Shown: piece by piece, positions 5,604 to 9,942 of the stretch
Layout: each line of letters starts with the position of its first letter
Position numbering within the stretch: position 1 is the stretch's first letter
From: Bosea sp. NBC_00550
Lineage (GTDB): Bacteria > Pseudomonadota > Alphaproteobacteria > Rhizobiales > Beijerinckiaceae
NCBI RefSeq assembly: GCF_026020075.1
Contig: NZ_CP102772.1
Location: 62,001 to 126,000, forward strand
Length of the DNA stretch: 64,000 bases
Reading direction: 5' to 3'
Notes under the pieces: generated by a model
What the model was told of the DNA's origin: nothing
The model's database searches: none
The model's input: only the letters and a program-made list of their open reading frames with translations
Made by a program: the position numbers and the translations under genes

Positions 5604-7403
5604 TCAGCGGCCGGCGGCATAGGCCTGCATCAGACGCGGCGTCGCGGCGGCGCGCAAGAGGCCGTCACTGCCGCGTTCCGCCGCAGTCAGCCGCCCGACC
5701 GTCCAGGCCGGCGCCTTCTCCAGCGCATGGCCGCGGCGTTCCAGCTCTGCCAGCGCCGCGCTGCCGATGCTCTCCTCGATCATCATATGGCCCGGTCGCG
5801 AAGACCGCGGATAGAAGGAGGAAGGGAAGTGCTGGGTGTGGAACAGCGGCAGGTCGATCGCTTCCTGCAGGTTGAGCCCGTGATGGACCCGGCGCAGGAA
5901 CAGGCCGAGCTGCCATTGCTCCTGCTGGTCGCCGCCCGGCGTGCCGAAGGCGAGCCGGGGCTCGCCCTTCTCGAAGGCGATCGTGGGCGTCAGCGTCGTG
6001 CGGGGGCGCTTGCCCGGCGCGAGCGAGGAGGGCAGGCCCTCCTCCAGCCAGAACATCTGCGCGCGCGAGTTGAGCGGGAAGCCGAGCTCCGGGATCACCG
6101 GCGAGGACTGCAGCCAGCCGCCCGAGGGCGTCGCCGCGATCATGTTGCCCCATTTGTCGATGACGTCGATATGGACGGTATCGCCCTTCCGCCCGGCCGC
6201 GACCATCGACGCCATGGTCGGCTCGCCGACGCTGGCGCCGCCCTGTGCGGGCTGGGCGATGGCGCCGAGCGCCCTCAGCGCATGCGCCACCTGGTCTTCG
6301 TAGCCGGACACGATGCCGGGCCTGAGTTCCAGGGAGGCCCGCTCGCCGATCAGGCCGCGCCGGCCGGCCGCGTAATCCTCGGAGAGCAGGGTCGCGAGCG
6401 GCACCTTCACGAAATCCGGGTCGCCGTAATAGGCCTCGCGATCGGCAAAGGCGAGCTTCATCGCCTCGACGACATGATGGACGAATTCCGGGCTCGCCGG
6501 CCCCATCCCGGCAAGGTCGATGCCTTCCAGGATCTTCAGCGTTTGCAGGAAGGCCGGGCCCTGGCCCCAGGGGCCGATCTTGAAGACCTCCCAGTCGTGA
6601 TAGCTGACCGAGGTCGGCGTCTCGTAGGTCGGCCGGTAACTCGCCATGTCCTGCGCGGTGAGCAGGCCCTTGTTGCGGCGGCCGGAGGAATCCATCACCT
6701 CCTGCGTGCGGCAGAAGCGGTCCATGGCCTCGGCGACGAAGCCCTTGTACCAGGCGTCATAGGCGGCCTGGATCTGCTCCTGACGGTCGCTGCCCTTCGC
6801 TTCCGCCTCGGAGAGGATGCGCTTGTAGGTCGCGGCTGCCGCCTTGTTGGCGAAGAGCTTGCGCGCTTCCGGCACATTGCCACCCGGCAAGTAGACCGCG
6901 CCCGAACTCGCCCACTCATTGGTGAAGAGGTCGGTGAGTTCGCGGATCGAGTCCGAGACGCGCGGCAGCATCGGGTGGCCGTTCTCGAAATAGCCGATCG
7001 CGGGCTCCAGCACCTCGCGCAGCTTCAGCCGGCCATGGTCGCGCAGCAGCGTCATCCAGCCCCCGAAGGCGCCGGGGATCACGGTGGCAAGCAGCCCGGA
7101 GCCGGGAATCAAATCGAGGCCGAGCGCCTTGTAGGCAGCGATGGTCGCAGCCTGCGGCGCCGGCCCCTGCGCGCAGAGCGTCTCAACCTTCTTCGTGTCG
7201 GCCGAATAGAAGATGGCGGGCATGTCGCCGGCCGGGCCGACGAGATGCGGCTCGACCACCTGCAGCACGAAAGCGGCGGCGGCGCAGGCGTCGAAGGCGT
7301 TACCGCCCTTCTCCAGCATCGCCATGCCCGACGCGGTGGCGAGCCAATGCGTCGAGGTGACGACGCCGAAGGTGCCGAGGATTTCGGGGCGGGTCGTAAA
7401 CAT
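5604..7403 (-). CDS. Gamma-glutamyltransferase family protein
   Basis: 599 residues, standard length for the GGT Ntn-hydrolase family. The N-terminal block ATASGMAMLEKGGNAFDACA and the DREAYYGDPDFV block are family landmarks. The maturation/catalytic threonine fits Thr409 in KGDTVHIDVIDKWGNMIA, where autocleavage would give large and small subunits. The region after it contains LNSRAQMFW, RTTLTPTIAF and TPGGDQQEQWQL, as in GGTs. No signal peptide is evident, unlike E. coli GGT, so the enzyme may be cytoplasmic and process imported gamma-glutamyl or related peptides. It is downstream of an oligopeptide importer but separated from it by the GIY-YIG cassette. Acylase activity on other amides cannot be excluded. 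Confidence 0.88.
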   Translation of the reverse strand: MFTTRPEILGTFGVVTSTHWLATASGMAMLEKGGNAFDACAAAAFVLQVVEPHLVGPAGDMPAIFYSADTKKVETLCAQGPAPQAATIAAYKALGLDLIPGSGLLATVIPGAFGGWMTLLRDHGRLKLREVLEPAIGYFENGHPMLPRVSDSIRELTDLFTNEWASSGAVYLPGGNVPEARKLFANKAAAATYKRILSEAEAKGSDRQEQIQAAYDAWYKGFVAEAMDRFCRTQEVMDSSGRRNKGLLTAQDMASYRPTYETPTSVSYHDWEVFKIGPWGQGPAFLQTLKILEGIDLAGMGPASPEFVHHVVEAMKLAFADREAYYGDPDFVKVPLATLLSEDYAAGRRGLIGERASLELRPGIVSGYEDQVAHALRALGAIAQPAQGGASVGEPTMASMVAAGRKGDTVHIDVIDKWGNMIAATPSGGWLQSSPVIPELGFPLNSRAQMFWLEEGLPSSLAPGKRPRTTLTPTIAFEKGEPRLAFGTPGGDQQEQWQLGLFLRRVHHGLNLQEAIDLPLFHTQHFPSSFYPRSSRPGHMMIEESIGSAALAELERRGHALEKAPAWTVGRLTAAERGSDGLLRAAATPRLMQAYAAGR

Positions 7404-7468
7404 GGGCGTGTCCAGTTTGTCAGAAAAAGGAATGGTCAGGCACGGAGCGGCTAGGTCTCTGCTTTCCG

Positions 7469-7527
7469 CTCAGCCCTCATCCTGAGGAGCCGCGAAGCGG
7501 CGTCTCGAAGGATGTTCCAGAAGGCTC
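7469..7527 (+). repeat. Left arm of the inverted repeat flanking the GIY-YIG gene (family D)
   Basis: Begins ctcagccctcatcctgagga and continues through ccgcgaagcggcgtctcgaaggatg. It can fold on itself through catcct/aggatg and gccgc/gcggc. It differs from the reverse complement of the right arm at two bases only. Confidence 0.9.
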
Positions 7528-7562
7528 GTAGACGCATCGCAAAGCGATATTGAAACCGCGGA

Positions 7563-7862
7563 TCATGTTCGGCGCCTTGCGAACTCGGGGAGTTGCTCCC
7601 AGCGACCATCGATCATGGCTTGCTTCTTACGTCGCGACCAACCCTTGACGCGCCGTTCCATGGCAATCGCATCGAGAATATTGGGGAAATGCTCCGCGAA
7701 GGCCAAGGTGACGGGTCGCCGAGTGAAGGTGTAGCTACCGGGGTGCAGCCCCGCATTGTGCTGACTGATCCGGGCTTCGATCTCTCCGCGCGAAGTTCCG
7801 GTGTAGAAGCTGCCATCGCTGCATTCTACGATGTAGAGCCAGCATCCATCCTGTTTCCGCAT
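7563..7862 (-). CDS. Small GIY-YIG nuclease-domain protein (YhbQ/UPF0213-like)
   Basis: 99 residues, a single GIY-YIG domain. WLYIVECSDGSFYTGTS supplies the two beta-strand signature elements (as YIV and YTG), GEIEARISQHNAG carries the conserved Arg and His helix, and LAFAEHFPNILDAIAMERRVKGWSRRKK carries the downstream metal-binding Glu and basic helix. These residues make metal-dependent phosphodiester cleavage plausible. I start it at the ATG at 7862. The frame extends upstream to 7997, but residues there are translated from the right-hand repeat. The gene lies entirely between inverted REP-like hairpins. Free-standing GIY-YIG proteins are widespread and mostly uncharacterised; a role in moving or processing the repeats is hypothesis. 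Confidence 0.85.
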   Translation of the reverse strand: MRKQDGCWLYIVECSDGSFYTGTSRGEIEARISQHNAGLHPGSYTFTRRPVTLAFAEHFPNILDAIAMERRVKGWSRRKKQAMIDGRWEQLPEFARRRT

Positions 7863-7924
7863 GACAGCCGGAGCTCCAAAGAATCCCAACCTCGTTCGGT
7901 CGAGGCTTGCTGGCAACCTCGGCG

Positions 7925-7983
7925 GAGCGTTCTGGAGCATCCTTCGAGACGCCGCTTCGCGGCTCCTCAGGATGAGGGCTGAG
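7925..7983 (-). repeat. Right arm of the inverted repeat flanking the GIY-YIG gene (family D)
   Basis: The inverted copy of 7469-7527, 57 of 59 bases identical. It ends 14 bases before the stop codon of the neighbouring permease gene and covers most of the permease-to-nuclease intergenic space. Confidence 0.9.
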
Positions 7984-7997
7984 TAGGTGGAGATCAT

Positions 7998-8879
7998 CTA
8001 GCCCTCCTTTGGATCGAGCGCGTCGCGCAGGCCGTCGCCGAGCAGGTTGAAGCCGAGCACGGCGAGGAAGATACAGACGCCCGGCGCCACCGACATCCAC
8101 GGCGCCTGCTCCATGAAGTTCTTGGCGACGTTGAGCATCTGACCCCAGGACGGCGACGGCGGCTGCTGGCCGAGGCCGAGGAAGGAGAGGGCGGCTTCCA
8201 GGATGATTGCCTGTGCCATGAACAATGTCGACTGCACCACGATGGGGGACAGGGTGTTGGGCAGCACATGGCGGAACATCAGCCGCAGGTCCCGCGCGCC
8301 GACCGAGCGCGCGCCTTCGACGAAATCCTCCGCCTTCACGCTCATCACCTGGCCGCGCACCAGCCGGATGAAGATCGGCACGGCCGACAGCCCGATTGCG
8401 ATCATCGCATTGGTCAGCGAGGGGCCGAGCACCGCCGCGAAGGCGATGGCGAGGATCAGGAAAGGGCAGGCGAGCAGCGCTTCCGTGATGCGCGAGATCA
8501 CGATGTCGGTCCAGCCGCCATACCAGCCGGCCAATAGCCCGAAGGGCAGGCCGATCGCCACCGCGATCAGCACCGAGACGATGCCGGCGAGCAGCGAGGC
8601 CTGCGCGCCGTAGAACAGCCGCGAGACCTGATCGCGCCCGAGCTCGTCCGTCCCGAACCAGTAGAGTTCCGAGGGCGGCTTGCGGATGGCGAGGAAGTTG
8701 GACTTGAACGGGTCTGCCAGCGGCAGGATCGGTGCGAGTACCGCCATCAGCACGAAGATCAGCACGATCCCGCCGCCGATCAGCGCGGACTTGTTGCGGA
8801 TCAGCCGGGCGAGCACGCCGGGGCGCGCCTTCATCCCGCTCGCCGCGCCCGATGAGGGGAGGGAATCCAGCGATGCCAT
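7998..8879 (-). CDS. Oligopeptide-type ABC transporter permease (DppC-like)
   Basis: 293 residues: a cytoplasmic N-terminus, a first membrane helix (ALIGGGIVLIFVLMAVLAPI, residues about 30-49), the periplasmic FGTDELGRDQVSRLFYGA block typical of DppC/OppC, then five further helices. The EAA loop GARSVGARDLRLMFRHVLPN contacts the ATPase. The ATG at 8879 shares one base with the stop of the DppB-like gene (TGATG). A longer same-frame reading up to 9848 is antisense/out-of-frame noise across the neighbouring permease. No ATPase gene is nearby, so the importer must borrow one encoded elsewhere. Confidence 0.9.
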   Translation of the reverse strand: MASLDSLPSSGAASGMKARPGVLARLIRNKSALIGGGIVLIFVLMAVLAPILPLADPFKSNFLAIRKPPSELYWFGTDELGRDQVSRLFYGAQASLLAGIVSVLIAVAIGLPFGLLAGWYGGWTDIVISRITEALLACPFLILAIAFAAVLGPSLTNAMIAIGLSAVPIFIRLVRGQVMSVKAEDFVEGARSVGARDLRLMFRHVLPNTLSPIVVQSTLFMAQAIILEAALSFLGLGQQPPSPSWGQMLNVAKNFMEQAPWMSVAPGVCIFLAVLGFNLLGDGLRDALDPKEG

Positions 8880-9823
8880 CAGCCGGTCCTGAGGCGCGGA
8901 TTGACGAGGACGTAGAGGATGTCGGCCAGCAGGTTCATCAGGATGAAGCCGATTGCGGTGCACAGCACCACGCCCTGCACCACCCCGTAATCGCGATTGA
9001 ACACGGCATCGACGATCAGCTTGCCGAAGCCGGGGATGGTGAAGACCTGCTCGGTCAGCACCGCGCCCGCCAGCAACTCGCCGAAGAGCAGGGTGGTCAG
9101 CGTGATGATCGGCACCAGCGCGTTGCGCAGCGCATGGCGGTGGATGACCGTGTCCTCGTCGAGCCCCTTGGCCCGGGCGGTGCGGACATAATCCGAGCGC
9201 AGCACCTCCAGCATCGCCGAGCGGGTATGGCGCATCAGGAAGGCCGCGAGCCCGTTGCCGAGCACGAAAGCCGGCATGATCAATCGCTGGATCGCCTCCC
9301 AGGGGTGAACGAAGATCGATTCGTAGCCCGAGGCCGGCAGCCATTTCAGGTGCACGGAAACCAGCAGGATCAGCATGATCCCGAACCAGAAATTCGGGAT
9401 CGAGAGGCCGGACAGCGCGGCTGCGCTCGCCGAATAGTCGATGATCGTGCCCTTGTGCCGCGCGGCGAGGATGCCGATCGGAATGCCGATGCAGATCGCG
9501 ACGAGGATCGAGGCGGTCGCGAGTTGCAGCGTCACCGGCAGCTTCTGCAGGATCAGGTTCAGCACCGGCTCGCCGGTGCGCAGCGAGCGGCCGAAATCGC
9601 CCTGGACCACCTGTCCCAGCCAGGCGAAGAACTGGACGACGACCGGGTCGTCCATCCGGTAGATCTCGCGCAGCCGCGCGATCACCTCCGGGTCGCGCTC
9701 CTCGCCGGCGATGACGAGGAAGGGGTCGCCCGGCAGCGCGCGCTGCAGGGCGAAGACGAAGAGCGAGACCAGGAATAGCGTCGGTATCGCGATGAGGATG
9801 CGGCGGATGATCAGGGTGAACAT
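8879..9823 (-). CDS. Oligopeptide-type ABC transporter permease (DppB-like)
   Basis: 314 residues starting MFTLIIRRILIAIPTLFLVS, the usual first helix of DppB/OppB. The ALPGDPFLV segment, the GDFGRSLRTGEPV motif of the periplasmic loop and the EAA loop (DYVRTARAKGLDEDTVIHRH) are all present. It forms the translocation pore with the DppC-like subunit, to which it is coupled by a one-base overlap. It is separated from the binding-protein gene upstream by a 145-bp gap holding a family-B palindrome. The substrate is probably a peptide, perhaps gamma-glutamyl, judging from the downstream gene. Confidence 0.9.
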   Translation of the reverse strand: MFTLIIRRILIAIPTLFLVSLFVFALQRALPGDPFLVIAGEERDPEVIARLREIYRMDDPVVVQFFAWLGQVVQGDFGRSLRTGEPVLNLILQKLPVTLQLATASILVAICIGIPIGILAARHKGTIIDYSASAAALSGLSIPNFWFGIMLILLVSVHLKWLPASGYESIFVHPWEAIQRLIMPAFVLGNGLAAFLMRHTRSAMLEVLRSDYVRTARAKGLDEDTVIHRHALRNALVPIITLTTLLFGELLAGAVLTEQVFTIPGFGKLIVDAVFNRDYGVVQGVVLCTAIGFILMNLLADILYVLVNPRLRTG

Positions 9824-9842
9824 GGCGCGCTCGGAACCGCTC

Positions 9843-9942
9843 CGTCATCCCGGATGCAGCGAAGCGGAACTCCGGGATCCATCGTAGAGAACCGCGCTCT
9901 GCGATGGGTCCCGGGACGACCTTCGGCCGCCCGGGATGACGG
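9843..9942. repeat. Palindromic intergenic repeat, family B, copy 1
   Basis: An imperfect palindrome beginning cgtcatcccggatgcagcga and ending cggccgcccgggatgacg. Related copies are at 16138-16242, 18376-18469, 28957-29053, 36331-36456 and 49317-49412. It lies within the ABC operon, between the binding protein and the first permease, where it could reduce read-through or protect the upstream mRNA. Confidence 0.8.

Follow-up and report, generated by a model that had tools for sequence, protein, structure and literature searches.

A GIY-YIG nuclease gene framed by inverted REP hairpins in Bosea sp. NBC_00550: probable dedicated partner of its own repeat family

What a small nuclease gene is doing between two inverted, hairpin-forming repeats, and whether enzyme and repeat belong together, is the question raised by a locus of Bosea sp. 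NBC_00550. The locus lies in the window, i.e., the stretch of 64,000 nucleotides analysed here (NZ_CP102772.1, 62,001 to 126,000; coordinates below without a prefix are those of the window). The original prediction saw in it a REPtron-like layout with a GIY-YIG nuclease in place of the Y1 transposase, and supposed that the nuclease may recognise or cleave the hairpins and drive their dispersal.

The cassette occupies the 597-bp stretch (7404..8000, permease stop codon included) between ggt (gamma-glutamyltranspeptidase, PF01019; 5604..7403, minus strand) and an ABC peptide permease gene (7998..8879, minus strand; 293 aa from the Met of MASLDS.., within the 7998-9848 open frame). It comprises a left REP arm (7469..7527, plus strand; head CTCAGCCCTCATCC outward, tail GGATGTTCCAG facing the gene), a single-domain GIY-YIG nuclease gene (7566..7862, minus strand; stop codon 7563-7565) and a right REP arm (7925..7983, minus strand), the mirror image of the left one. 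The arms were recognised by inverted-pair comparison and folding, the left one also by its genome copies, and the gene by Pfam, alignment and selection. As had been claimed, two inverted arms, 59 nt each, matching at 57/59 positions (97% complementary) and spaced by 397 nt, surround one intact gene, and both arms can fold as hairpins (-12.0 and -11.3 kcal/mol as single-stranded DNA, z -3.0 and -2.6). Their pairing is far beyond chance, with a score of 108 vs. a maximum of 31 with shuffled flanks (20 shuffles x 30 loci). The two 15-base core halves find exact matches in the window at the two arms alone. No Rfam family reached up to its gathering score over 7200-8200, and a plasmid nucleotide search with 7440-8000 returned a single record covering 9% of the query.

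The sole Pfam family matched by the cassette gene is PF01541 (E=1.2e-13), and its Y, Y-x-G, R, H and E positions, which we take to be the GIY-YIG catalytic set, are invariant across 24 aligned sequences. The length of 99 codons presumes that the conserved downstream Met, at which the homologues begin, is the true start; the mechanically listed open reading frame of 144 aa reads through the right arm. Upstream of the conserved start, an in-frame ATG (MLQN.., 7938-7940, minus strand) arises from the right REP, in its GGATG tail, and could extend automatic annotation with REP-encoded residues. Among five proteins compared with NCBIfam, four matched no family and one (L108) gave a 20-bit match to a group I intron endonuclease, far below the cut-off.

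The arm is dispersed in the 6.27-Mb genome (two contigs): at E<1e-3, a hand count gave 36 places, comprising the two cassette arms, 30 copies in 15 close doublets and four single copies. All 15 doublets are oriented like the cassette arms, with heads outside and tails inside. In the eight doublets readable in full by a strict regular expression, the outer ends AGCC..GGCT agree with those of the cassette in 8/8 and the inner TCCAG in 7/8. Thus, in layout the cassette resembles such a doublet, except that a gene occupies the spacer. The gap between the two hairpins is 32 bp in 7/8 of the own-genome doublets, and elsewhere is often 22 or 32 bp (e.g., G052, G163, G516), lengths about one helical turn apart. 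The outer stem covaries: among 130 distinct hairpins from the fetched loci, 118 keep Watson–Crick pairing vs. 70.8 expected with independent sides, counted with no down-weighting of related loci, and 27 of the 39 hairpins departing from the major outer-stem type still pair. As a short imperfect palindrome of many copies, with inverted doublets, a hairpin and a covarying stem, the arm is a REP/REPIN sequence.

Other GIY-YIG sequences are present in the same genome. An open frame of 717 residues at 2300873, probably uvrC, matches GIY-YIG, and a solitary REP (G000:C1:2302200-2302258) lies ~1.1 kb from that match. Two further small GIY-YIG genes, L100 (G000:C1:5681308-5681526) and L099 (G000:C1:1047386-1047598), are flanked by two other repeats, the flank pairs being GTCATTCCGGGGC..GAGCCCGGAACCCAGA (score 91) and the weaker ATGGTCGCC..GGCGACCAT (score 34). 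Hence, this one genome may hold three enzyme–REP pairs.

The homologues are largely bracketed as well. A search at the protein level through 199 genomes from the same family delineated clade A, a sharp close group that includes the window gene, and a more distant group B. An inverted match between the 400-bp flanks with a score of at least 34, a limit chosen after the shuffles were known, was found at 31/40 clade A and 39/46 group B loci; one of 41 A rows (which include gene fragments) and three of 49 B rows were excluded for short flanks. In shifted-window controls, the same test was passed at 1/56 places for clade A and 1/59 for a phylum set made up of 90 high-scoring listed places rather than a random sample; the group B loci were all too short for this control. 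Flanks taken from different loci reached the limit in 55% of pairs for clade A and 14% for group B, the former because one REP superfamily is common to the clade A flanks. The failures (9/40 in clade A, 7/46 in group B) count against the explanation preferred below; a pattern search shows a REP beside the gene, on one side or both, at all nine failing clade A loci. The clade A gene of G524 has no REP by pattern, in a genome with one REP copy, and that of G525 is split in two pieces, with a REP on one side.

A further set of loci, found with one protein pattern in named genomes, was bracketed in 60/79 cases vs. 7/154 shifted controls (57/76 after removal of three passing loci repeating earlier ones; L354 was excluded for a short flank). 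CGTC-like sequence occurs in 58 of the 60 passing loci by a loose regular expression, and two passing loci (L355, L367) resemble other repeats by eye. The passing loci include Winogradskyella and Hanstruepera (presumably Bacteroidota), Scalindua (presumably Planctomycetes), Uhrbacteria, Parcubacteria, Moraniibacteriota and Omnitrophus; L336, from a record titled Bacteroidetes bacterium, failed. The bracketed genes range over Proteobacteria, Bacteroidota, Planctomycetes, Omnitrophota and Patescibacteria. Of 98 CGTC loci with REPs to either side of the gene, 20 have them in the same orientation instead of mirrored. Y1 genes, taken for comparison, have inverted flanks scoring at least 34 at 6/18 loci (two of 20 excluded for short flanks), two of them CGTC-type and four other by regular expression, and none like the CGTC consensus by eye. 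The Y1 genes L282-L284, from three genomes, have in common a repeat in their flanks that reads GCGAGCCTTCAGGCTCGC or differs slightly from it.

A search of the plasmid collection PLSDB with a group B protein gave 36 records. In four of them (Neisseria, S. meliloti, A. lipoferum and N. aromaticivorans), chosen because CGTC REPs are attributed to their species or genera by Di Nocera et al. 2013 (PMC3733652), the gene is present with inverted flank matches of 54-106. In Azospirillum lipoferum 4B (L400, NC_016623.1 255506-255799), the group B gene, flanked by REP dimers to either side, has sufB as one neighbour and sufC as the other. The 2.17-Mb Neisseria gonorrhoeae records NZ_CP119142.1 and NZ_CP119140.1, plasmids according to PLSDB, look from their size like chromosomes.

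The kind of REP goes with the kind of enzyme. In a tree built from 179 GIY-YIG rows (a quick one, with few columns and many weak forks), clade A is accompanied by TGAGG-type REPs and group B by CGTC-type REPs, the split amounting to one change, a figure that depends on labels given in part by eye. The labels come from loose regular expressions, and “TGAGG-type” takes in several related motifs; the raw group B labels were 34 CGTC, two TGAGG, three other and seven none, and L116, L123, L125, L144 and L145 (group B) as well as L165, L217, L228 and L245 (phylum set) were relabelled CGTC by eye. L094 (G109), counted with clade A in the copy-number test and with group B in the bracket test, is a long branch in neither on the tree. 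REP and protein diverge together: across 114 CGTC-labelled loci, their similarities are correlated (Mantel r=0.36, p=0.001), also for pairs under 60% identity (r=0.11, p=0.001). The profiles of clade A and group B match each other with a probability of 99.6 and 32% identity. The bracketed vs. unbracketed state requires 21 changes on the tree, with unbracketed rows inside A and B too. A third GIY-YIG clade, which we take to be UPF0213/YhbQ-like, is unbracketed in 47/47 rows; the notion that all GIY-YIG genes are alike in this respect was discarded on this ground. Overall, since the homologues tend to be bracketed by their own matching kind of REP, the enzymes are probably dedicated REP partners, and certain repeats that abound in bacteria would then have GIY-YIG enzymes as partners.

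The number of REP copies was compared with the presence of the enzyme, the copies at the nuclease loci themselves being included in every count. The clade A REP pattern was found in 89/199 family genomes, and its reversed version, used as a control, gave none among the matches listed. At least four copies were present in 33/37 genomes with clade A vs. 39/162 without it (p=1.6e-13), and at least 15 copies in 26/37 vs. 23/162; with a strict clade A set (E<1e-20), at least four copies were present in 29/32 vs. 43/167 genomes (p=4e-12). Among the 20 genera holding both kinds of genomes, 17 departed in the expected direction, two in the opposite one, and one was a tie. Across the same 199 genomes, the number of clade A REPs showed an association neither with the presence of group B (p=0.38) nor with that of Y1 (p=0.36). 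Group B was counted in 43 genomes (G105 and G130 on matches resembling clade A copies), and its absence is unreliable because the search query was a clade A protein, which missed the two group B genes of the own genome. The other REP type behaved similarly: at least 10 copies of the GCGAG-type CGTC REP were found in 14/14 genomes with the matching tree subclade vs. 59/185 others (p=3.4e-7), and their number was not associated with other group B (p=0.52) or clade A (p=0.26). The number of copies thus goes with the enzyme in both REP types that were counted.

The expectation that copy number tracks the GIY-YIG clade therefore holds across the family; within the genus, the link is weak. There, clade A is present in 8/61 genomes, with a median of 48.5 REP copies vs. 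24 in the rest (p=0.097), and 29 of the 53 genomes without it hold at least 15 copies; the two-contig genome G536 has 171 copies and no nuclease match at E<=1e-5. Such genomes imply that REPs can outlast, or do without, a resident nuclease, and the REP-rich family genomes lacking clade A (the 23/162 above) count against the preferred explanation.

The permease–ggt locus itself was aligned in the 30 closest of the 61 genus genomes. The gap is just 18-35 bp in 20 of them, which bears out the view of the cassette as an interruption of an operon; it measures 72 bp in three and 172-174 bp in three more, and it houses the GIY-YIG cassette in four, the window included, so that 26/30 loci are cassette-free. 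In the gaps of 172-174 bp (L193-L195 in G491, G501 and G513), a CGTC-headed REP dimer from a different family stands alone, which gives the impression of a site that accepts REPs repeatedly. Permease DNA was matched in 61/61 genus genomes, in some merely as paralogues, and the cassette is at this locus in five of them: the window, G510, G486, G528 and G490, the last judged from coordinates, not alignment. The same-locus proteins are 74-84% identical, and their genes show apparent purifying selection, with dN/dS of about 0.06-0.12 in the pairs that have a dS of 1.3-2.4 (the remaining pairs are saturated). In G522, a 53% identical gene lies at another place with REPs on both sides, and the permease–ggt gap is without a cassette. 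No target-site duplication, the lack of which had been remarked on before, and no clean empty site showing one were discernible by eye in the 30 aligned intergenic regions.

In our reading, the cassette has long been resident and under selection, with a relocation or transfer now and then. Recent hopping, the sense in which mobility had originally been suggested, is left unsupported and was rejected in view of the shared locus and the purifying selection; the marks of an autonomous mobile element, i.e., a recent change of place and a target-site duplication, were not seen in the cassette. In G114 (C1:62708-63713), two near-identical clade A genes (L051 and L086) are situated 0.45 kb apart with REPs at each, an apparent cassette duplication.

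The explanation preferred here, with good confidence, is that the cassette represents a resident, non-hopping REP-plus-nuclease unit: the clade A protein would be a nuclease dedicated to the REPs of its own kind, hairpins of the form CCTCAT..TGAGG..TCGAAGGATG. We are highly confident that enzyme and REP are functional partners. It is likely that the enzyme cuts the REP hairpin; that it also drives REP dispersal is a tentative proposal, somewhat short of an even chance. The protein would recognise the hairpin in single-stranded or extruded DNA and nick it near the CCTC head or the CCAG tail, on the analogy of Ssn at its repeats (see below). Repair or recombination of the nicks might then spread the REPs as doublets, which would be gene-less derivatives of the REP-plus-nuclease unit, and the nuclease gene would be held at one place by selection. 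RAYT genes are likewise kept by selection at one place. In its broadest form, the proposal is that REPs of the CGTC and TGAGG types owe their origin and spread to two sister GIY-YIG sets, by a nick-and-repair process unrelated to HUH transposition, the pairs co-diverging; we advance it with slightly less than balanced expectation.

The same evidence can be read in other ways. A site-specific nuclease of single-stranded DNA could act at places marked by REPs to tune the uptake of DNA or recombination, with another driver behind the spread of REPs. This possibility, which we regard as real if not probable, has the first half of the preferred explanation in common, so the likelihoods of the two overlap. 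The presence of the Neisseria group B gene among dRS3-type CGTC repeats speaks for it, purifying selection without hopping suits a host function, and the REP-rich genomes without nuclease are accommodated by it; taken alone, it leaves unexplained why copy number follows the matching clade across genera. It is also conceivable that the GIY-YIG gene behaves as a homing-type element, its product cutting empty sites that lack REPs and the gene being copied into them. GIY-YIG homing endonucleases exist, and cassette-free sites are found at the same locus, but the neighbour genes differ among the annotated records examined and between the window and G522, and the gene has long been present in the genus (74-84% identity, dS of 1.3 or more), which makes homing unlikely.

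Passive bracketing, with REPs piling up in the intergenic gaps on either side of a short gene, draws on the fact that REPs are common in these genomes. It is opposed by the shifted windows (1/56, 1/59, 7/154), which are less than an ideal control since they are not always gene-sized gaps, by the GIY-YIG clade unbracketed in 47/47 rows and by the prediction of REP type from enzyme clade, and we assign it a very small probability; chance or REP crowding as the source of the bracket was rejected on the shuffled and shifted controls. A smaller chance still is given to a RAYT acting on the REPs in trans with the GIY-YIG gene as a passenger. PF01797 is matched in 40/199 family genomes, some of them also with clade A, but the own genome has no PF01797 match anywhere, clade A REP number is unrelated to Y1, and the inverted flanks of the Y1 loci are by eye unlike the CGTC consensus. 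The RAYT-in-trans scheme was therefore discarded, owing to the absence of a PF01797 match from the genome and the lack of association.

If the preferred explanation of a dedicated REP nuclease is true, it helps to explain the abundance of REP-like palindromes in genomes without RAYTs, ties the biochemistry reported for Ssn of Neisseria to general REP biology and supplies matched enzyme–site pairs for single-strand work. In the open-access literature searched, no paper pairing GIY-YIG with “REP sequences” or “repetitive extragenic palindromic” was found, papers combining GIY-YIG with REPIN were, judging by title, on restriction enzymes, and none of the other titles listed brought the two subjects together.

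The earlier statement that no GIY-YIG counterpart had been described is probably wrong. A 2025 paper in Nature Communications is said to describe Ssn, a GIY-YIG family cutting single-stranded repeats site-specifically in Neisseria; its members are reportedly small GIY-YIG domain proteins with the catalytic residues kept, with a role in the tuning of DNA uptake or recombination. Like Ssn, the cassette protein is a small single-domain GIY-YIG enzyme tied to a many-copy repeat, with catalytic-type residues kept. The Neisseria group B gene is bracketed by CGTC/dRS3-type repeats, and its smallest starred set on the tree has 78 rows (CGTC 59, none 11, query 4, nd 3 and one more) and no TGAGG. We infer that this gene is Ssn; since it falls in group B, group B is probably Ssn or its close kin. 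The window protein differs from it in belonging to the separate clade A (apart from the Neisseria gene at SH-aLRT 90, not starred), in the 32% identity and in its TGAGG class of REPs with a CCTC head. By protein and repeat comparison, clade A thus appears as a set related to group B with its own REP class. The only two solved structures retrieved with the clade A profile are the UPF0213 GIY-YIG proteins 1zg2 and 1ywl, and the presumed UPF0213-like clade is the one devoid of REP brackets.

In PMC3733652, REPs are divided into GTAG REPs, served by RAYTs, and CGTC REPs, apparently without a dedicated transposase; the latter have a CGTC (or TGTC/CCTC) head, an 8-9 bp stem starting with AT, a 4-5 nt loop and a CCA tail, and form dimers. 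The group B REPs are by eye like these CGTC-tagged REPs in the CGTC/TGTC head, the AT start of the stem, the CCA tail and the dimers. The window REP shares the CCTC head and the AT start with them and differs in a longer interrupted stem, a different loop and a displaced CCAG tail. Group B thus fits as a candidate enzyme for the CGTC REPs left without one in that account, and the specific answer offered to its question is that each type of REP is associated with a GIY-YIG clade of its own.

The dispersed REP arm, the GIY-YIG enzyme, the bracketed homologues with matching flanks and the family-wide tracking make the layout look like a REPtron with another enzyme, in line with the original prediction. 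The three outcomes named there as leaving mobility unsupported were checked, and the opposite was seen each time: the arm has 36 places in the genome, most homologues carry flanking repeats (31/40, 39/46 and 60/79), and 26/30 of the closest genus loci lack the cassette. Compared with the REPtron (RAYT/TnpAREP with GTAG REPs), as outlined in PMC3733652, the cassette has a GIY-YIG protein (PF01541) where the HUH/Y1 transposase would be, no Y1 gene and no GTAG tag in its arm. What it has in common with the REPtron is a single gene within a bracket of dispersed inverted REPs and gene-less doublets of the same REP elsewhere in the genome.
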